Shown here piece after piece: positions 13,350 through 28,739 of a stretch of DNA of 36,846 nucleotides. The first letter of the stretch is position 1, and every line of letters starts with the position of its first letter. Source of the stretch: Deltaproteobacteria bacterium. GTDB taxonomy: Bacteria > Myxococcota_A > UBA9042. Location: NCBI GenBank assembly GCA_016875335.1, contig VGRO01000038.1:1-36846 (forward strand), written 5' to 3'. A model generated the notes under the pieces. The model was given only the letters and a program-made list of their open reading frames with translations, had not been told where the DNA came from and ran no database searches. Made by a program: the position numbers and the translations under genes.

Positions 13350-14822
13350 TCATCCGCCCAGCTCGCCCGCAAGAACCCGCTCCGCCGCACAAGGCGCCAG
13401 CCACGCATGCGCCCGCGCCGACACCTTGGCCGCCCGCTTGGCCATCGCCGCGGCCTCCCGCGACACCCGTCCTGGATGCGGTGCTCCCGCCATGTCGCGT
13501 CGCCGCAGGGCCTTGCGCACATCGATGGCGCCCGCGACCACGGCCTTGTCGACGCCCAGCTTCTCGGCCACCCGCGCGGCGCCGAGCTTGCCGAAGGTCG
13601 TGTTCTGCGCGACCAGCTCCGCCACCAGCGCTGCCACTTTTTCATGAGCGGTGCGAAACGGCATTGCGGCGCGCACAAGCTCGTCGGCCAGATCGGTCGC
13701 CAACAGGAAGCCCTTGTCCAGCGCGGCCAGCAGCGCCTTCTTCTGCCACTGCGCCGCCGCCAGCATGTCGGCCGTCACCTGCAGGCAATCGCCCCACGTC
13801 TGCAGGGCATCGAAAAGCGGCTCCTTGTCCTCCTGCATGTCCTTGTTGTAGGCGAGCGGCAGACCCTTGAGTGCCACCAGCAGCGTCACCAGGTCGCCGA
13901 TGACCCGGCCGGACTTGCCGCGCAAAAGCTCCGCCATATCCGGGTTTTTCTTCTGGGGCATGAGCGAACTGCCGGTCGTGAACGCGTCGGGCAGCCGCAC
14001 GAACCCGAACTCCGCCGAGGCAAAAAGGCACAGTTCTTCGCCGATGCGCGACAAGTGCACGGCCCCCAGCGCCGCGGCGGCCATCGCCTCGACCAGGTGG
14101 TCGCGGTCGGCAACCGCGTCGAGCGAGTTGCGGGTCGTGCCCGAAAACCCGAGCAATGATGCCGTCTTGTCGCGGTCGATCGGCAGCGTCGTGCCGGCCA
14201 GCGCCCCGGACCCCAAGGGCGAGACATTGAGGCGTTCCAGGCAATCCAAGACGCGCCCGGCATCGCGCAGTTGCGCTTCGGCGTGGGCGAGCAGCAGGTG
14301 GCCCACCGTCACCGGCTGCGCCCGCTGCAGGTGGGTATAGCCCGGCATCGGCCAGTGTGCGTGGGCGCGCGCCGTTTCGGCCAACACGGACGCCAACCGC
14401 GCGATGTAGCCGGCCATCTGCGCCAGGGTCCGCCGCAGCCACAGCCGCTCGTCCACGGCCACTTGATCGTTGCGCGATCGCGCCGTGTGCAGCCGCCCGG
14501 CCGGCTCGCCGATGCGGTCGCGCAGGGCGGCCTCGATGTTCATGTGCACGTCTTCGCGCGCCACCGACCACCCGAAACGGCCCGCCTGGATGTCGGCCCA
14601 AACCGTGCGCAGGCCGGCGACGATGGCCGCATGATCGGCGGCTGGCAAGATGCCTTGATCGCGCAGCATGGTGGCGTGGGCAATGGAACCCACGATGTCG
14701 TCGTACGCCAGCGCCTGATCGTAGCCGACCGAGGCGTTGAGCTTCTGGACCAGCGGGTGGGTGGCTTCGGCGTAGCCGCCGCCCCACAGGCGGTCTGGGG
14801 CCTTGCCGACGGCGTCGGTCAT
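13350..14822 (-). CDS. argH: Argininosuccinate lyase
   Basis: A 490-aa enzyme, the usual length, that splits argininosuccinate into arginine and fumarate in the last step of arginine synthesis. It belongs to the fumarase/aspartase superfamily of cytosolic homotetramers. Signature regions are intact: W-G-G (13-15), H-T-A-R-S-R-N-D-Q (112-120), M-P-G-Y-T-H-L-Q (159-166, with the conserved His), and the flexible catalytic loop G-S-S-L-M-P-Q-K-K-N-P-D (284-295). The ATG at 14822 has GGAG six bases upstream; a longer open frame to 14873 adds nothing conserved. It lies 83 bases downstream of the giant lipoprotein gene in the same direction, and the gap holds an 8-bp GC stem (14857-14892) without a U-tract. 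No other arginine gene is nearby, so this housekeeping gene stands isolated among surface-protein genes. Confidence 0.96.
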   Translation of the reverse strand: MTDAVGKAPDRLWGGGYAEATHPLVQKLNASVGYDQALAYDDIVGSIAHATMLRDQGILPAADHAAIVAGLRTVWADIQAGRFGWSVAREDVHMNIEAALRDRIGEPAGRLHTARSRNDQVAVDERLWLRRTLAQMAGYIARLASVLAETARAHAHWPMPGYTHLQRAQPVTVGHLLLAHAEAQLRDAGRVLDCLERLNVSPLGSGALAGTTLPIDRDKTASLLGFSGTTRNSLDAVADRDHLVEAMAAAALGAVHLSRIGEELCLFASAEFGFVRLPDAFTTGSSLMPQKKNPDMAELLRGKSGRVIGDLVTLLVALKGLPLAYNKDMQEDKEPLFDALQTWGDCLQVTADMLAAAQWQKKALLAALDKGFLLATDLADELVRAAMPFRTAHEKVAALVAELVAQNTTFGKLGAARVAEKLGVDKAVVAGAIDVRKALRRRDMAGAPHPGRVSREAAAMAKRAAKVSARAHAWLAPCAAERVLAGELGG

Positions 14823-14905
14823 GGGGACTCCAACACAGCGCCATGTTTTGGTTTTCGCCGGGCGCCGCTGCAACGGTCGCAGGACGCCCGGCCGGGCGCG
14901 CGGGC

Positions 14906-17900
14906 CTATTTGACGACGATCTGGCCCTTCATGCCAAACGATGCGTGCGGGCCGCAGACGTAGTAGTAGGTGCCGGGCTTGGTGAACGGGATCTTCTTGG
15001 TCTGGCCAAAACCGACCGAGAAGCCGTCGGGCACCGGCACCGCGTCGCCGGATTCCCAGTCGGACTGCGACACCTCAATGACGTTGTGGTTGCCGGGCAC
15101 GGTGAATTCGACGATGTCGCCGACGGCGATGGTGAGCGGCGTGGGGGTGAAGGTGAAGCCGCTGGTCGTGACCTTGTGGATGGCCGGCGGCAGGCCGGTC
15201 TGGATGCGCACGTCGTCGACGAACCAACCGGGGCCGTCGTTGGCGAAGGAGTCCTTGGTGGTGAAGCGGAAGCGAATCTTGATCTTCTTGCCGATGTGCG
15301 CCTTGAGGTCCACGGTCATCAGGACCCATTTGTTCAAGTCGCCGATCGGCTGCTTGGGTACGGTCTGCAGCACGGTGGTGCCCTGCATGATGTCGACCAG
15401 CGCGTCTTCAAACGGCTCCGCGAATCCGGTGAACGACGCATACGACAGGACCGCCACGGGCACGCCGGTGAGATCGATTTCGGGCGACGTGGCATTGCCG
15501 GCCGAGACGCCGCCGGTGCCGGCATAGCTCGACCCGTCGTTGATGTTGAGCGAGCACGGCGGGCTGAAGGCCGCAGGCTGCGCCGGGGTGCCATCGACAC
15601 CCCAACCGACACCGTTGACACCCTTGGCGTCCAGGGTCCAGCCAGCGGGCACGCTGCAGGCATCGAAGCTCTCGTTGAGCCCGAGTTTGCACACCAACGT
15701 CGGTCCCTTGCAGGAACCGGCCGTGCACACGTCGCCGTCGGTGCACGCCACGCCGTCATCGCACGCCACGCCGTCCTTTTGCGGCGTGAAACTGCACAAG
15801 GCCTGGCTGCCGTTGACCGCACAGGCGTCGACCGTGCACGGGTTCTTGTCGTCGCACGCCGGCAGGGTGCCGCCACACTTGCCGGCCTTGCACACGTCGG
15901 CGTTCAGGCACGGGTTGTTGTCGTTGCAACTGCTGCCGTCGGCGCTGCTGCCGACGCCCACGCACGCACCGGCCTGGCAGTTGTCGCCCGTGGTGCACGC
16001 GTTGTTGTCGGTGCACAGGGCCTTGTCGGCCTTGGGCTGGCCGCCCGCGCACTTGCCGGCCTTGCAGCCCTCGGCGGTGGTGCAGTCGTTGTCGTCGCTG
16101 CAAACGGCGCCGTCGGCCATCGGCACCGCCGCGCAGTCGCCGCTCGCCGGTACGCAATTGTCGGTGGTGCAGCTGTTGCCGTCGTTGCACACCTTGGCCA
16201 CGCCGGCGCACGCCGAGTTCGCGCATTTGTCGGCGAGCGTACAGGCATTGCCATCGCTGCACGGGGCGCTGTTGGCGGCGTTGGTGCATCCGCCCGAGGT
16301 GACATTGCAGGTGTCGGTGGTGCACGGGTTGCTGTCGTTGCAGTCGGCATTGGTTTTGCAGGAGGCGTCGCCGATGACCAGGTTCTCGATGAATGCACCG
16401 ACCGTGGCATTGAACTGGCAGTTGGTGGCCGAGAACGAGAACTGCACCCGGAACCGCTGACCGATGAACTTGCTGGCGTCCAGTTGCACGACTTTCCAGT
16501 AGTTGGCGCTGTCGTAGGTCGCTGTCACCGCCGTGGCTGTCGAGTTGATGGGCAAAAGCGCCACGTCGAGGTTGTCGAAGCTGTTGTTTTCCCAGGCGCC
16601 GCTGTACTGGAACTTGACGTGCAGTTTGGTGCCAGTGTAGCCGGTGGCGTCGATGACCGGCGACAGCGCCTTGCCGCCGACCTTGGTGGCGCCGGTCGGG
16701 CACTGGAAGTCGACGTCGTTGTTGAAGTTGAGCGAACAATCCGGCGACAGGAAGCCGGGCGGATTGGGCTTGGCGTCCACCATCCAGCCCGGGCCCGGCT
16801 GCGGCGGGTCGTTGACGATGAGCCACGACGTCATGGGGTCGCCGCACTTGAAGTCGTTGGCGTAGGGCGGCTTGACCTCGGAACAGCCGTTGGTGTACGC
16901 CGACTTGCAACCCGCCTTGGGGTCACAACTGTCGGCCGTGCACTTGTCGCCGTCGTCGCACGAGATCGGCTGGCTGCCCTTGCACACGCCGGCCTGGCAC
17001 GCGCTGGCTTGGGTGCACACGTCGCCGTCGTTGCACAGGTTGGCGTCAAGCGGTGCCGACACGCACTTGGACTTGTCGCACTTCTCGACCGTGCACATGT
17101 CGGCGTCGGGCGGGCATTCGCTGTCTTGCGAACAGCCAGCGTTGGTAGGCGCGATGATGGTGACGTCGTCGATGAACCAGCCGGCACCGCCATTGGCGAA
17201 GCTGTCGCCGCTCTCGAAGCGGAAGCGAACCTTGATGGTCTTGCCCGCAAACTGCGCCAACGAAATCGGCGCCGGCTGGTACCAGGTCATGATCTTGTTT
17301 TCGGTCAACTGGAACGAGTAGGCCACCGACACGAAGTTGTCGGTCGAGATGTCGATGTACTTTCGGTCGTAGTTCGACCCGGTCTCAGTGTCGTAGTAGG
17401 TCCAATACTTGAGCACCTGACCAGGCCCGACAGCGACTGCCGGCGAAATCGCCGTGCCGTTGACCGTTCCCGCAAAGTCCTTGCCGTTGTTGAAGTTGAG
17501 CGAACACGCCGGGCTCTTGGGCGCTGGCGGGTTGGGCGTGGCGTCAAACGCCCACGCGCTGCCGTTGCTCGGCGCGCTCATCGTCCAGCCCGCGGTGTTG
17601 CAGTCCATCGGCCAGTCGGCAACCACGGCCACGGTGCAGGCAGTCGCGGCGGCCTTGCACAGGCCGGCCTTGCACACCTCGTTGACGGTGCACAGGTCAC
17701 CGTCGCTGCACGGGGCGTCCTCGGCCATGGGCACGCTGGCGCAGATCTTGCCGCCGGGTCCGTTCTGGGTGCAGGTGTCGAGCGTGCACGGGTTGCCGTC
17801 GTCGCAGGCGTTGCCGCCCTGGCACTTGCCCGACAGGCACTTGGGACCGGCGGCCACGCAGCCGTCGCTGGTCGAGCACGACGTGCCGTCGGCCGCCGCC

Positions 17901-20900
17901 ATCTTTGGCACGCACTTGCCACCCTTGCACGCATCGCCCGCGCTGCAGGCGTCGCCGTCGCTGCAACTGAGGTTGTCGGCCACCGGCAACCCGGTGCACT
18001 TGCCGTTGGCGCACGCGTCTTTGTCCGTGCACGCATTGCCGTCGCTGCAGAACGCCGCGTCGGCCAGCGGCGTGTAGACGCACCCCACCGCAGGGTCGCA
18101 CTTGTCGCTGGTGCAGGCCTCGTTGTCGTTGCAGATCTTGCTCGGACCCGCCGCGCACGCGCCCGCCTTGCAGTTGTCGGCTAGCGTACACGGGTTGCCG
18201 TCCTCACACGGGGTGCCGACAAGCGGGGTGAACGTGCATTTGCCAGTGGCGCAGGTGTCTTTGGTGCACGCGTCGCCGTCGCCGCAGTTGGCGTCGGTCT
18301 GGCAGCTCTTGGCTACGTCGGTCCAAATCGACAGGTCGTCGACGAACCAGCCAGCCCCGCTGTTGACATTGCAGTTGACCGAGTCAAAGCGGAAGCGGAC
18401 CTTGATCTCTTTGCCAGCGAGCGGCGTCAAGTCCACCAGCACCTGTTTCCATTGGGTATTGGTGCTGTCGTTGTCGACCAACAGCGACACCGGGATGGTC
18501 TTGAAGTCGTCGGCGCTGGCCTCGATGTAGCGCAGGTCGGCCGCATCGGCCGTGCCGGTGCCGGCCCACGACCACACCTTGAGCAACGCCGATTTGGCGC
18601 CGGCCAGGCTATAGGTCTTGGCCGACGCCGCGCTGCCGTCGACCTTGGTGGCGCCGGTCGGGCACGAGAAGTTCTGGCCATTGTTGAAGTTGAGCGAACA
18701 CGCCGGCGAGAAATAGCCGGGGTTGGCGGCCGTACCGTCGATGGCCCACTGCACGGGCGTCGGGTCGGCTTGCGGCGGCACGACCCAGCCACCCTTGCCG
18801 CAGTCGAACTTGTCGTTGGCGGCGTTGCTGCACGGCCCAACAGTTCCCACGCACTTGCCGGCCTTGCACGCGTCGCCCGCCGTGCACGGGTCGTTGTCGC
18901 TGCATGCGGCGTTGTCCGCGGCGGGCGCATTGGCGCACACCCCGGAGCTGGCGGTGCAGTTATCGGTCGTGCACGGGTTTGCGTCGTCGCACTTGGCGCG
19001 GCCTACGCACTTGCCGCCCTTGCAGTTGTCGTCGATGGTGCAGTTGTCGCTGTCGCCGCAGCTGCTGCCGTCGTCGGCGTTGGCGTATTTGCAGCCGGCG
19101 ACCGGGTCGCAGCTGTCGATGGTGCAGGCCTGGTTGTCGTTGCAGTTTGTGGCGGTGGGACCCAGGCAGCCGCCTGCGCCGTTGCAGACGTCGCCGGTCG
19201 TACACTTGCTGCCGTCGTCGCAGGGCAGCTTGTTGAACGGGTACTGGCAGGCGCCATTGACGCACTTGTCGTCGGTGCACGCGTTGCCGTCACCGCAGTC
19301 GCCGTCGCCGCCGCAGCCCTTGGCCTTGTCGGTGAGAAGCACCAGGTCATCGACGAACCAGCCTACGCCCGAATTGCTCAGGCAATGCAGCGAGTCGAAG
19401 CGGAATCGCACCTTGACGGTCTTGCCGGCCAGCGGCGTCAGGTCGAATGCCAGCAGCTTCCAGCCGTTGAGCGCCGATGCGCTGTTGTCGAGCTTCCACG
19501 CCAACGACACGGTCTTGAAGTCGTCGCCGCTGGCCTCGACCCAGCGCTGATCGGTGTAGTTGTCGGTGCTGACACCGGCCCAACTCCAGAACTTGAGCAC
19601 GGCCTGCTTGCTGCCCTCTAGGTTGAGCGCCGCGCCCAGCGTCGCCGTCCCTGCCACCTTGGCCTGGCCGGTCTGGCACAAAAAGCTCTTGCCGTCGTTG
19701 AAGTTGAGCGAGCACGCCGCCGACTTGTAGCCGGGCGGCAGCGCCGTGCCGTCCACCGACCAACCGCTGTGGGTGGCGGTCTCGGGCAAGGGGGCAATCA
19801 CGAACGCCTGGGCCTCGGTACAAGCAATCGCCAGGCTGTAGGCCACTGAGCACGGTCCAGCCGTGCCGGCGCACTTGCCGGCCGCACAGGCGTCGCCAGC
19901 GGTACAGGCGTCGGCGTCGCTGCATGGCGTGCCGTCGGGCGCGTTGGGCGTCGCACAGGTGAAAGTGCTGGCGTTGGGCGTGCACTTGTCGTCGGTGCAC
20001 GGATTGCCGTCGTCGCAAGTGGGGTAGGCGACGCACTTGACACTTTCACAGTGGTCGAGCTTGGTACAGGGGTCCCCGTCGTTGCAGGTGTTGCCGTCCG
20101 CCAGCGGCTTGAAGACGCACTGGCCGGACAGCTTGTCGCAACTGTCGCTGGTGCACGGGTTCTTGTCGTCGCACGGCACGGCGCTGCCTGCGCAGTTGCC
20201 CTCTGCGTCGCAAGCGTCGTCGGAGGTGCACTTGTTGTTGTCGTCGCAGTCGCCCGCGGGCTTGGCGAGGTTCACGCAGCCCTTCTGCTTGTCACAACTG
20301 TCGGCGGTGCAGGCGTTGCCGTCGTCGCAGGCGCCGTTGTCGCTCAGGCACTTGCCGGCCTTGCACACGTCCTTGGTGCAGGCGTCGCCGTCACTGCACG
20401 CCGCGCTGTCGTCCGCGGCATTGCTGCAGCCAGCCTTGGCGTCACAGGCGTCCTTGGTGCACGGGTTCTTGTCGTCGCAACTGGAGAGCGCGCTCACACA
20501 TTTGCCGGCCTTGCAGCCCTCCGCGGTGCACGCGTCGCCATCGGTGCAGGTGGCGGTGTCAGGCAGCGCCGCGTTCTTGCAGCCGTCCTTGGCGGCACAG
20601 GTGTCGGCCGTGCACACGTTGTTGTCGTCGCACAAGCCCGGTTTTTCGTCGACGGCGCCGCTGCAATCGTTGTCGATTCCGTCGCAGACTTCGATCGAAG
20701 GCGTCGCGGCGGTGCACGGGGTCAGGCCGGCCGCAGTGCAGGTGCGGTCCGCTTTGCAGGGGCCGTTGCTGCAGGTGGTGCTGGCGCCCGCGGCGATGGC
20801 GGCCGGGCTGCACTTGCAGACCGCGTTGTCCTTGGGCTTGCAGAACTTGCCCTTGGCACCGCTGACGTCCGCGCCGTCCACGCAGCTATACCCATCGGGG

Positions 20901-21817
20901 CAGTCCGGGCTCAGCAGGCACTGGAACCCGCAGAAACTGCCGTCGCCGCCAAACGCAACGCATGCCCCGGCCTTGCCCGCTGCGGACGGCTGGGCGCACT
21001 GGTCGTTCGCCTTGCACGGCGAGCACAGCGCGATGTCTTGTTCGAGGCACAACGCCTTGCCGCCCGCCTTGGCGCAGCCGAATCCCGCCGGGCAGGCGTC
21101 GTTGGCGCCGCAGGCCGCCACGCACACTGGCTTGCCGGCCAGGTTCAGGCCACATTCGCCGCTGGCGCAGTCCTTGGATTCCTTGCACGCGCAGCCCGTT
21201 GCGCCGGGGCAGACCGGGCCGGCGTCGGCGGTTTCGGCCGCAACGTCGCCGGTGTCGCCCGAGGCCGTTTCGCCGCCCGCAGCGTCGGTGTCGGGGGCCA
21301 GCGCGGTTTCGCCACCGGTCGCGTCCCCGTCCGCGCCAGCGGTGGTCTCGGCCGCGACGTCATCCAAGGTTTCAGCCGCCGTCTCGGCGGTCACTTCTGC
21401 GGTGACCTCGGCCGCGACGTCCGGCGCAATTTCCGCCTCGGTATCCGGTCCGACCTCCGCGGCCACCTCCGCGGCCACCTCTGCGGCGACTTCTGCGGCG
21501 ACTTCTGCGGCCACCTCGGCGGCGACTTCGGACGCGGCTGCGTCCGTGTCGGCTGCGGTGTCGGGTGCGGCATCGACGGCCGCGTCGGTTCCGCCGCCCG
21601 TGGTGTCGATGGGGACGCCGTCCTCGCCGCCGCCTCCGATGGTGTCAGTGGTCACGGCCTGGTCGGCCACACCGACCGCGTCGGCCCCGGTGTCGGCGGT
21701 GGATGTGCTGCCGCCGCCCGCGCCGCACGCCGCCAGTGCGGACAGGGCGCACAGTATCAAAAGACGCCACAGCACCGACGCGCGGACGCGCGCGCCAAAA
21801 CTCGCCGACGTTGTCAT
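14906..21817 (-). CDS. 2303-aa Cys-rich lipoprotein with five beta-sandwich domains and a C-terminal cupredoxin
   Basis: The ATG at 21817 gives a classical lipoprotein signal ending L-A-A-C (about residues 28-31), with TTGAGG 8 bases upstream. A long Thr/Ala/Glu/Val stalk follows, including six E-V-A-A units (about 97-122), then a Cys-rich block (225-370) with a MopE-type motif [10 protein letters not shown]. Many C-x-D-G-x-x-C-T repeats are interspersed with five homologous domains of about 165 residues (about 656-830, 995-1170, 1393-1560, 1650-1823, 2043-2209). Each has C-S-L-N-F-N-x-G near the start, and four of the five end with a G-W-F-[VI]-D-D-type motif (jelly-roll or MAM-like fold); the fourth is degenerate there (G-A-F-I-E-N). 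The last 94 residues form a plastocyanin-like domain with type-1 copper ligands: His2244 in G-N-H-N-V and C-G-P-H-A-S-F-G-M (Cys2288, His2291, Met2296). The protein is presumably surface-anchored. A role in electron transfer, copper handling or adhesion is inferred. Confidence 0.87.
21452..21529 (-). repeat. Six 12-bp coding repeats (E-V-A-A) in the lipoprotein stalk
   Basis: Near-perfect 12-base units read GAGGTGGCCGCG with variants on the minus strand and encode Glu-Val-Ala-Ala. They lie just after the lipobox in the presumed extended stalk. Because the unit is a multiple of three, length change by slippage would keep frame and vary stalk length. Confidence 0.8.
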
Positions 21818-21905
21818 GCGATGCCTCAAACGGGTTCTGGAAAGGACCGCGCGCCGACCCGCGCGCTTCGCCGCGGCCGCCGGTGGAGCGGCAGGCCGAA
21901 CGCGC

Positions 21906-21935
21906 AGTGTAACGAAGTGTGTACAGGGGGCGCAA
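21906..21935 (-). promoter_or_regulatory. Possible promoter of the cupredoxin lipoprotein gene
   Basis: On the minus strand, TTGCGC (21930-21935), an 18-base spacer and TACACT (21906-21911), about 90 bases before the ATG at 21817. It is one of few less GC-rich spots in the divergent region 21818-22193. The match is weak, and no other element is seen there apart from the plus-strand promoter candidate at 22129. Confidence 0.25.
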
Positions 21936-22128
21936 GCCCGTCTGCATCCCCGCATGCTTCGAGGTGCGGCCCCTCAAAGGCGCGGCGGCGCCGATGGTTT
22001 CGGCTTGCGCTCCAGCGACTTGGCCAGGACCAGAAGCCGGATGACTGGCCTTCCGCCGGCACGGCCTCGACCCTCGCCGCAGCGTTGCGACCGAGACTGG
22101 CCCGACGAACACCGCGTCCTTTTTCGCC

Positions 22129-25674: not shown

Positions 25675-27030
25675 TCACCCCGCCCGAAATCCCTCGATTT
25701 CGTCGGCGCCGATCCCCGCGTACGTCAACCAGCGATAGACCTGCCTGCGGTGGACGCCGAACTCGTGGGCAAGCGCCTCGACGCGTCCGTGATGCCGGCG
25801 CAGGGCATCGCGCAGGTGGGCGGGAGGCGGCCTGCGGGCCTCCGTCGGCGTCAGCGTCGCCTCGGGCCGGGCCACGGCGACCTTGCGGATCAGGTCGTCG
25901 GGCAGGTGCTCCAGGCCGACCGGGTCGCGACCGGCCAGCGCCCGCGCCCGCGACAAGGCCCCGCGCAGCGACCGCAGGTTGTCGAGCCAGTTGTGCAGCA
26001 GCACCGCCTCGGCGGCCTCCGTGGTCAGCCGGTCCGCCCACATCTTGGGAGGGCGGCCGTCGACCAGGGGCAGGACCACGTCGGCGAACTCCAGCACGTC
26101 CGCGCGCCGGTCGCGCAATGGCGTCAGGTGCACCGTGTTGCTGCGCAGCCGTGCCAAGAGGTCGCGGCGAAACCGCCCTTCGCGGACCAGGGTCTCCAGA
26201 TCGGCGTTGGTCGAGGCGACGAAGCGCACGTCCACGCGCAGATCCGCGCTGCCGCCCACCGGACGCACCAGGTTTTCTTCCAGCACCCGCAGCAGCTTGG
26301 GCTGCAGGTGGGCCGGCAGGTCGCCGATCTCGTCCAGCACCAGCGTGCCGTGGTTGGCCTCGCGCACCCGGCCCATGCGCGCGGCGGTCGCGCCCGTGAA
26401 CGCGCCGGCCACGTGGCCGAACAACTCGGATTCGAAAAGTTCCGAAGGCACGGCAGCGACGTTCATGCGCACGATCGGGCCGGTCCTCCGGCTGAGGCGG
26501 TGGATTTCGGCGGCCGCGTGTTCCTTGCCGGTGCCCGTCTCGCCGACCAGCAGCACGTGCAGGGGTTGTTCGGCGGCCAGCGCGACGTCAAAGCGCGTCA
26601 ACCGGGCACGTTCGGTCCGGCCGGGCAGGTTGGGCGTCGGATCGGCGTATTGCAAGGCCGTGCCGGCATCGGCCTCGAGCACCAGGACCGTTCCACCCAA
26701 CCGCACCACCGCGCCGTCGCCCAGTCGGGCCTGTCGCACGGGCTGCCCTCCGGCCCAGGTGCCGTTGCGGCTGTCGAGGTCGCGCAACCATACGCCGCTC
26801 AGGTCCGGGTGCACCAGCAACTGGTCGCGCGACAGCGCCGGGTCGTCCAACTGCAGGCCAGCGGCCTTGCGACCGACTGTCCACGGCGCCATGGGCATGC
26901 GCACCACGCGCCCGGCGTGGGCCGGATCTGGACACTTGACCACGTGCAGGCGCCAAACCATGCTGCTCGAGCCCGGTGGCACCTTGGGCAGGTCGGGGGT
27001 GATGGTGGTGGTGGTGCTGTCGCGGTCCAT
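25675..27030 (-). CDS. FHA-domain sigma-54-dependent transcription activator
   Basis: A 451-aa protein from the ATG at 27030. Order: a Thr-rich tail (S-T-T-T-T-I-T, residues 5-11); an FHA domain (about 48-118) with G-R at 53-54 and R-N-G-T at 88-91, but S-R-D-Q in place of the usual S-x-x-H; an AAA+ sigma-54 interaction domain (about 140-370) with Walker A G-E-T-G-T-G-K-E (163-170), the sigma-54-contacting loop G-A-F-T-G-A (209-214) and Walker B T-L-V-L-D-E (229-234); and a Fis-type helix-turn-helix (about 415-440). Activators with an FHA in place of a receiver domain are common in Myxococcota and respond to Thr phosphorylation. The kinase gene ends 8 bases upstream, so the pair is probably co-transcribed and the kinase is the likely partner. 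Targets are unknown. Confidence 0.92.
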   Translation of the reverse strand: MDRDSTTTTITPDLPKVPPGSSSMVWRLHVVKCPDPAHAGRVVRMPMAPWTVGRKAAGLQLDDPALSRDQLLVHPDLSGVWLRDLDSRNGTWAGGQPVRQARLGDGAVVRLGGTVLVLEADAGTALQYADPTPNLPGRTERARLTRFDVALAAEQPLHVLLVGETGTGKEHAAAEIHRLSRRTGPIVRMNVAAVPSELFESELFGHVAGAFTGATAARMGRVREANHGTLVLDEIGDLPAHLQPKLLRVLEENLVRPVGGSADLRVDVRFVASTNADLETLVREGRFRRDLLARLRSNTVHLTPLRDRRADVLEFADVVLPLVDGRPPKMWADRLTTEAAEAVLLHNWLDNLRSLRGALSRARALAGRDPVGLEHLPDDLIRKVAVARPEATLTPTEARRPPPAHLRDALRRHHGRVEALAHEFGVHRRQVYRWLTYAGIGADEIEGFRAG

Positions 27031-27038
27031 CGATCGGT

Positions 27039-28535
27039 TCACTTTGGGATGTAGGGCGCCTTCCAGTCGGCTTGCGCGGGCGCGGGGGGCGAGGGCGGGC
27101 TTTCCGCCGCCGTTTCGCCGCCGTGCGGTGCCGTCCGCGGGCGCTCGGCGCCAGCGCTCGCCGGGCGCTTGGCTCGCGCGAGGCGTATCACCGCAGGCGT
27201 CGCGGGTTCCGTCTGGATCGGCGCCGGGGTCGATGAAATCGGCCGGTGGACGCCCACCGGCATACCTGGAGGCGCCTGCGCCTCGACCCGCGCGGCGACC
27301 CTGCGGCTGTCCCCAGGTCCGACGGACGGCAGTTCGGTCGTACCCGGGGGTTGGTGCGCTGCGGACGGCGTTCGCGCCGACGGACCCGGCGTCGGGGCGC
27401 GCAAGGCTTGCACCCCGGCCAGCAGGCCAACCGCGGCGAGCCCGGACGCACCCACGATCCAGCTCCGGCGACTGCGGGCCTGCGGGATGGCCACCGAAAC
27501 CGTCTGGGTGCCCGTGCGCGATTCGCGCGCTTCGCCCGGTTGCGGGACTATCTGGGTCACCGGCCTCCATTCGGCGACCGACGCCGCCGGATCCGTCAAG
27601 GCCAGCCGCATGTCGCGCGCATTGGCAAACCGATCCGCGGGCCGCTTGGCCAGGGCGCGCATCACCACCTGTGCAAAGCGCGGCGACAACGCCACCGGGG
27701 CGACGCTGGCCACATCGGCGGCGGGCTTGTGCACGTGCCCCCACATCACGGCCATCGCCGTCGGCGCGCGAAACGGTGTGTGCCCCACCACACATCGGTA
27801 GAGCACGACTCCCAAGGCATACAGATCGGCGCGGGCGTCGACCGATTCACCTTGGCACTGCTCGGGACTCATGTATTCCGGTGTGCCCAACGCGTGCTCG
27901 GTGGGGGTCAGCGACGAGTCCTCGACCAGCGCGAGGCCAAAATCGAGGATTCGGACCGCACCGTCTGCGGCCCGCAGCGCGATGTTGCTGGGCTTGAGGT
28001 CGCGGTGCACCAGACCGGCCTCGTGCGCGACCTGCAAGCCGTCGAGCACGTGCTGGGCGATGCGCGTCGCCTCAGCCTCGCTGTAGACCTCGCCCTGGCC
28101 CAAGCGGTCGCGCAGGTGGGCTTCGAGCGTGCAGCCGTCGATGTACTGCATCGCGAGGTAGAGCGCCCCCGACTCGGTTTGGCCCACGTCGAGCACGCGC
28201 GCGAATGCGTCACCGTGCAGGCGGGCCGTGACCTGGGCCTCACGGAAGAAGCGGCGCAGCGACTCGGGGGTCGGCCGCTCGCTGCGCGGCAGCTTGAGCG
28301 CCACCGCGCCCAGGCCGAGCAGGTGCTCCGCGAGGTACACCACGCCGTGGCCGCCGCGGGCAATCTCCCGAACGATCCGATACTTGCCGCACACCATTGC
28401 GCCCGGTTCAAGGTCGACGCGGGCAGTGGCGAGGGCGTCCAGCGAGACCGTGGCAGTGCCATCGCGCGGGCAGACGGGCGCGCTGGCCGACTGGCCGCAT
28501 GCGGGGCAGAGGCGAATGGGCGCTGGAGACGCCAT
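27039..28535 (-). CDS. Ser/Thr protein kinase with N-terminal zinc ribbon and one membrane span
   Basis: A 498-aa protein from the ATG at 28535. It starts with a zinc ribbon C-P-A-C-G...C-P-R-D-G (10-26), followed by a Hanks-type kinase: glycine loop R-G-G-H-G-V-V (60-66), V-A-L-K with catalytic Lys81, H-R-D-L-K-P-S-N (177-184), D-F-G (198-200) and the activation segment G-T-P-E-Y-M-S-P-E (217-225). A membrane helix (about 359-377) follows, then a Pro-rich tail of about 110 residues presumably in the periplasm. The open frame reaches 28727, but the ribbon and a leaderless-type promoter support 28535. It forms a two-gene unit with the FHA activator. It likely senses an envelope cue and phosphorylates Thr residues, possibly in that activator's tail (inference). 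Confidence 0.92.
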   Translation of the reverse strand: MASPAPIRLCPACGQSASAPVCPRDGTATVSLDALATARVDLEPGAMVCGKYRIVREIARGGHGVVYLAEHLLGLGAVALKLPRSERPTPESLRRFFREAQVTARLHGDAFARVLDVGQTESGALYLAMQYIDGCTLEAHLRDRLGQGEVYSEAEATRIAQHVLDGLQVAHEAGLVHRDLKPSNIALRAADGAVRILDFGLALVEDSSLTPTEHALGTPEYMSPEQCQGESVDARADLYALGVVLYRCVVGHTPFRAPTAMAVMWGHVHKPAADVASVAPVALSPRFAQVVMRALAKRPADRFANARDMRLALTDPAASVAEWRPVTQIVPQPGEARESRTGTQTVSVAIPQARSRRSWIVGASGLAAVGLLAGVQALRAPTPGPSARTPSAAHQPPGTTELPSVGPGDSRRVAARVEAQAPPGMPVGVHRPISSTPAPIQTEPATPAVIRLARAKRPASAGAERPRTAPHGGETAAESPPSPPAPAQADWKAPYIPK

Positions 28536-28541
28536 GGGCGG

Positions 28542-28570
28542 ATTGTCGGCGGGACGGCGGCAGCCGTCAA
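28542..28570 (-). promoter_or_regulatory. Putative leaderless promoter of the kinase gene
   Basis: On the minus strand, TTGACG (28565-28570), a 17-base spacer and GACAAT (28542-28547). Transcription would start at or next to the A of the ATG at 28533-28535, leaving no leader; no Shine-Dalgarno is present there. Confidence 0.35.
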
Positions 28571-28739
28571 GGTGCCATTCGCGCTGTGTCGGCGACGCGC
28601 ACGGCGCTTCCGTCATTTCGGGTGCCGAGTCCGTGGTCGGCAGCGATCCGCGTTCGTCCGGCGGGTGCGACCAGGTCCTGCGGCCACCGGTTCGAGCGAC
28701 GGGGTGCCGGCGCAATCCTTCCGACATGGCCCGGGTAAG

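Follow-up and report, generated by a model that had tools for sequence, protein, structure and literature searches.

The last ~94 residues of a 2303-residue predicted lipoprotein, encoded on the minus strand of the window (the whole 36,846-nucleotide stretch analyzed here), form a cupredoxin head that aligns with plastocyanins at all four copper ligands. We consider it probable that this head is a functional type-1 copper site, carried at the far tip of a rod with a lipid anchor and acting most likely as a tethered one-electron carrier. Related heads recur at the ends of lipoproteins across the phylum, and in relatives such stalks can end in a monohaem cytochrome c instead. The rod protein is most likely a variant of the lipid-anchored cupredoxins with an exchangeable copper/haem tip.

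A type-1 copper domain with the ligands His2244, Cys2288, His2291 and Met2296 had been proposed from the sequence alone, and the residue numbering proved exact. Pfam Copper-bind (PF00127) matches a 114-residue piece carrying the head at 4.5e-12, and since the score of 46.7 bits compares with a cut-off of 21.2, the match is not a chance one. A phmmer search of the PDB returned plastocyanins (best 1pla, 1.8e-9), with which the His, Cys, His and Met of the head align ligand-on-ligand. Structure prediction, suggested in the initial annotation as a check, gave a cupredoxin fold: the AlphaFold2 model, built from 11 rows (the window protein, its relative at locus L038 and nine plastocyanin-like proteins from viral contigs), has a pLDDT of 80.5 and a pTM of 0.72. 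Foldseek placed plastocyanins and pseudoazurins on top (1pla, E 5.7e-8), and in VIA-align the best match was 5fc9, a purple cupredoxin from Nitrosopumilus (Z 11.4, rmsd 1.6 over 82), with plastocyanins at about Z 9-10 (1bxu, Z 10.3). From the ligand alignment and the superposition over model residues 9-100, the four ligands are predicted to converge on one site. The NCBIfam models for halocyanin (TIGR03102) and plastocyanin (TIGR02656) score 45.0 and 42.7 bits, under a cut-off of 93.8 and an equivalog cut-off of 87.85, respectively; the head therefore belongs to the superfamily and to no named equivalog. It is under purifying selection (dN/dS 0.23), and the whole rod gene, compared with L038, gives a dN/dS of 0.17 at 81% identity overall. 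In IMG/VR viral contigs, long open reading frames with a cupredoxin at the end were also seen (L100-L102, L110-L113, L116); in the two that were scanned, L100 and L110, a subtilase domain (Peptidase_S8) lies upstream of it.

Table 1. Features of the rod lipoprotein gene and its downstream neighbor, in window coordinates
Feature	Coordinates	Strand	Basis or remark
Rod lipoprotein gene with C-terminal cupredoxin head, 2303 aa	14906..21817, stop included	-	open frame reaches upstream to 21955
Signal peptide, ending in lipobox-like LAAC (LSALAAC)	21725..21817	-	sequence
Low-complexity Ala/Thr/Asp/Glu/Val stalk, residues 32-202 (~170 residues)	21212..21724	-	sequence
Cys-repeat span, residues 396 (first) to 2019 (last), four beta-sandwich domains within	15758..20632	-	regex and Pfam
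Beta-sandwich 1, MAM / choice-of-anchor J type	19328..19870	-	motif at residue 702, alignment A4
Beta-sandwich 2	18314..18850	-	motif at residue 1040, alignment A4
Beta-sandwich 3	17150..17650	-	motif at residue 1438, alignment A4, NCBIfam choice_anch_J 6.6e-17
Beta-sandwich 4	16367..16870	-	motif at residue 1694, alignment A4
Beta-sandwich 5, immediately ahead of head	15194..15691	-	motif at residue 2088, Pfam InhA-like_MAM 2.6e-12
Cupredoxin head, residues 2210-2303 (~94)	14909..15190	-	Pfam, phmmer, AlphaFold2, Foldseek, VIA
His2244, first copper ligand	15086-15088	-	alignment to plastocyanins
Ligand loop CGPHASFGM (C-x2-H-x4-M)	14930..14956	-	alignment to plastocyanins
Cys2288, ligand, sole Cys of head	14954-14956	-	alignment
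His2291, ligand	14945-14947	-	alignment
Met2296, ligand	14930-14932	-	alignment
Argininosuccinate lyase gene (argH), downstream neighbor	13350..14873	-	thought functionally unrelated

The layout of the rod (Table 1) agrees in most respects with what had been read from the sequence: a head at the tip of a 2303-residue lipoprotein, with Cys repeats and five beta-sandwich domains below it. The 2303-residue reading begins at an internal Met (21817) of the minus-strand frame 14906-21955. By eye, LAAC at residues 28-31 reads as an N-terminal lipobox, with Cys31 presumably the lipidated residue. The Cys repeats give 33 regex matches and Pfam Dicty_CTDC in 14 stretches. Five CSLN-type motifs mark the sandwiches, single copies of which are assigned to MAM / choice-of-anchor J folds by Pfam and NCBIfam with scores above the cut-offs (NF038128, 62.2 against 30, residues 1409-1554; PF20773, 47.1 against 26.9, residues 2153-2206). 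The MopE-type motif claimed for the rod was found as a MopE-like motif of 10 residues at residue 378, but at E<=0.1 the protein has no reported match to the Pfam MopE family (PF11617). Only one of its 195 cysteines lies in the head; no CxxCH occurs in the protein, and no other redox cofactor motif in the rod. A 483-residue model that includes part of the rod has a pLDDT of 48, with the Cys repeats at about 25-40, too low to give a shape or length for the rod.

The initial annotation regarded a copper center on such a rod as unusual, a view that had to be corrected, since the rod has several paralogues in its own genome and its family is spread over the phylum. Searching with the head as a single sequence matched 15/137 genomes at 1e-6, and a profile of the head subfamily matched 17/377 genomes of the phylum at 1e-10, in 34 places. 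The window genome (G000) has four Copper-bind genes, the rod and those designated C188, C13 and C277. C188 combines Cys repeats, a CH domain (described below) and a cupredoxin head. C13 (L003/L059) has CH domains and a head, with a frame break just ahead of Cys-x2-His that is either an assembly error or a pseudogene mutation; the copy of C13 in a congener (L054) is intact. C277 is a cupredoxin outside this family; read by eye, its neighbors are Rieske, cytochrome b and cytochrome c genes.

Throughout the subfamily the cupredoxin is the C-terminal head of lipoproteins, on stalks of about 50 to >2,000 residues, the shortest having about 50-90 residues ahead of the head. In all distinct places read, the head ends the open reading frame within 3 residues, except in C13 and in G043:C722, where a tail of 123 residues follows. 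The His/Cys/His/Met ligands are complete in 26/26 heads of the tree, which leaves out C13, G008:C88, G013:C19 (a fragment), G216:C265 (not read) and weak outliers; the outliers among the head matches were G043:C722, G346, G119, G023, G058 and G097. The paralogue G008:C88 lacks the axial Met. Stalk types were assigned by eye. Other cupredoxin-capped Cys-repeat lipoproteins, for which a search had been proposed, were found as long Cys-repeat/sandwich rods (L039, L040, L043 and the shorter L041), as stalks combining Cys repeats with a CH domain (L042, L049, L053, L056) and as a Cys-repeat stalk (L045). The remaining heads stand on CH-domain stalks (L044, L046, L047, L051, L054, L055, L058), a propeller-like stalk (L050) or minimal anchors (L048, L052, L057 and others). 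On the 26-head tree, stalk type changes 9 times where the minimum is 5. An exchange of stalks is therefore likely but not proven, because the starred branches force no more than one change per type. On the same tree, minimal-stalk heads occur across the phylum, and every elaborate stalk seen belongs to family f1.

The CH domain, about 80 residues with an invariant Cys and His and often in tandem (alignment A5; e.g., L044, L051, L054, L181), has no significant Pfam family and is present in 19/52 relatives. It lies within cupredoxin-tipped frames in G000, G001, G003, G005, G006, G008, G011 and G013. In other genomes it belongs to lipoproteins of different make-up, three of which (G043, G026, G039) end in a monohaem cytochrome c domain. 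In another lipoprotein, L200 (G034:C19), CH domains come after a bacterial-globin domain (PF01152, 7.6e-9).

A profile of the cytochrome head matched 18/52 genomes, in 37 places, with no match in the window genome. Open reading frames from 29/30 fetched loci gave 32 matches, not all independent genes, each ending 0-3 residues past the cytochrome head; the 30th locus, L215, had no match in that run and on reading ends in the same way. These monohaem heads were found on Cys-repeat rods, on the CH domain and on minimal lipoprotein stalks. Cytochrome-tipped Cys-repeat lipoproteins are L204, L206, L207, L209, L210, L211, L223 and L215, the lipoprotein N-terminus lying outside view where the frame starts beyond the fetched stretch; Dicty_CTDC was confirmed by Pfam in L204 and L206. 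L204 comes from G004, a genome of the same genus as the window's in which neither the single-sequence nor the profile search found a cupredoxin head, at an assembly completeness of 81%. Among the 52 genomes, 12 have the copper head, 18 the haem head and 5, G008 and G011 among them, both, and mutual exclusion of the two at the genome level was accordingly rejected. Taken together, these data suggest that the electron-handling tip is swappable on one kind of rod.

Cys-repeat rods are abundant in the window genome. A first look gave 2504 candidates, of which 150 were scored, comprising 82 distinct frames (e.g., L068-L097, L250-L289); a Dicty_CTDC expansion of this kind was seen in 0/14 control genomes. 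We read 41 rods from 40 stretches, and 26 have at least 100 residues past the last repeat. The tips of these 26 include C-type lectin, laminin G, FGE-sulfatase, RCC1, MAM, EGF, TSP-1, somatomedin B and fibrinogen-like domains, with neither Copper-bind nor cytochrome at any of the scanned C-termini. Given this variety, the Cys-repeat rods seem to be a general scaffold for display, of which a redox tip is one rare use. The window holds a second Cys-repeat lipoprotein, P0002 (7321-12819, minus strand), with MopE motifs, a reported match to the Pfam MopE family and a C-terminal region of ~600 residues that is propeller-like by eye; it is syntenic in L038 at 81% identity.

The neighbors of the rod gene are housekeeping genes. 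Its adjacency to argH is also found in L038 and L040, and an operon logic was rejected in favor of chance adjacency, since six other family members have argH without the rod. Where conserved neighbors of the paralogues were scanned, they were of GlmS, GlmU, aminotransferase and penicillin-binding types. No redox gene was recognized in the window or beside those paralogues, and no copper transport or resistance gene in the window. Cytochromes, for which a look nearby had been proposed, were not recognized in the window; elsewhere in the genome there are 17 cytochrome-c stretches and three COX1 genes. The LPMO_10 family and the MtrB/PioB conduit families were not found in the genome. At 25675-28727 of the window (minus strand) there is a gene pair for a Sigma54-FHA regulator and a Ser/Thr kinase, with HSP70-like, dynamin-like and TPR genes near it.

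As we picture the mechanism, lipid would anchor the protein to the outer membrane, and the stalk, together with a rod built from disulfides and sandwiches, would set the reach. The head, presumably copper-loaded and displayed on the outer surface, would take or give one electron on touching a partner next to the cell or outside it. A monohaem cytochrome c would do the same in relatives, from the same terminal position. Plastocyanin and cytochrome c6 substitute for each other, and we liken the exchange of copper and haem heads to theirs. A tethered one-electron carrier fits the data because the ligands are conserved, the head is at the tip and a haem substitute exists. Several observations count against it: no redox gene adjoins the rod gene, no MtrB/PioB family was found in the genome, the rod has no cofactor motif for an electron path from membrane to tip, copper and haem heads co-occur in 5 of the 52 genomes, G008:C88 lacks the axial Met and C13 is frame-broken.

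The carrier might instead be periplasmic: the lipoprotein would sit in the outer membrane's inner leaflet, or else in the inner membrane, and its head would extend to respiratory complexes as tethered cytochromes do. The COX1 and cytochrome-c genes of the genome are consistent with this, as are the minimal forms with their short stalks. Laz of Neisseria, a lipoprotein with a cupredoxin and a role in electron transport, is reported not to be surface exposed in N. gonorrhoeae (PMC6277709), and lipidation of the rod therefore does not imply exposure. We nevertheless think a periplasmic site rather unlikely, as a rod of 2,200 residues, made up of Cys repeats and MAM-type sandwiches, would far exceed what the periplasm needs, and sister rods in the same genome end in domains of extracellular-matrix type (C-type lectin, laminin G, TSP-1, somatomedin B).

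The choice between an electron carrier and a copper trap, both of which the initial annotation had entertained, came down in favor of the former. A lipoprotein for copper trapping, acquisition or buffering would be in keeping with the complete type-1 site seen in the sequence, but it is very unlikely: a haem head, which relatives carry at this position on such stalks, cannot trap copper, the protein would bind one copper per 2303 residues, and the window has none of the copper-handling genes mentioned above. Even less probable is that the head feeds electrons to one particular enzyme outside the cell (an oxidase or a polysaccharide monooxygenase), with the sandwich domains keeping it near a substrate; carbohydrate-binding modules are among the Foldseek matches of the sandwich fold, but LPMO_10 was not found in the genome and no such enzyme gene is conserved beside the head family where scanned. 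That the head is a degenerate or purely structural fold is scarcely credible, as the broken frame of C13 and the missing Met of G008:C88 are set against intact ligands in every head of the tree and purifying selection on the head.

A broader and more tentative possibility is that this whole phylum displays a fringe of tethered one-electron heads, copper or haem depending on supply, for contact exchange with minerals, matrix or neighbor cells without multihaem conduits. On lipid-anchored stalks of about 50 to >2,000 residues, such a fringe would mirror at the surface the way plastocyanin and cytochrome c6 replace each other. Extracellular electron transfer has mostly been told as a matter of multihaem conduits and nanowires, from which single-electron heads on lipid-anchored rods, exchanged between copper and haem on one scaffold, would differ. 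They would also provide a natural length series relating reach to electron exchange, and a redox tip points to what a small number of the many otherwise unexplained Cys-repeat rods may do.

Cys-repeat lipoproteins tipped by a cupredoxin or a cytochrome did not turn up in the open-access papers searched. Laz, a small protein, resembles the rod protein in carrying a cupredoxin on a lipoprotein and differs in having no rod; we know of no haem-headed counterpart. The nearest reported parallel found, likened by description, is Slit_1816 of Sideroxydans lithotrophicus, a large, predicted-extracellular cupredoxin-domain protein with adhesin-like domains; its abundance is up on solid magnetite, and its cluster includes multicopper-oxidase-type proteins, SCO1/SenC and a predicted cytochrome (PMC12016527). 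Halocyanin and plastocyanin (TIGR03102, TIGR02656, PF00127) share with the head their fold, ligand order and C-x2-H-x4-M loop. They are, however, small free or anchored carriers, whereas the head described here tips a 2303-residue rod and scores below the halocyanin and plastocyanin family cut-offs. Within the phylum, the lipoproteins tipped by a monohaem cytochrome c match the rod protein in anchor, in Cys-repeat or CH stalk and in having a one-electron carrier as the last domain, with haem c in the place of copper.
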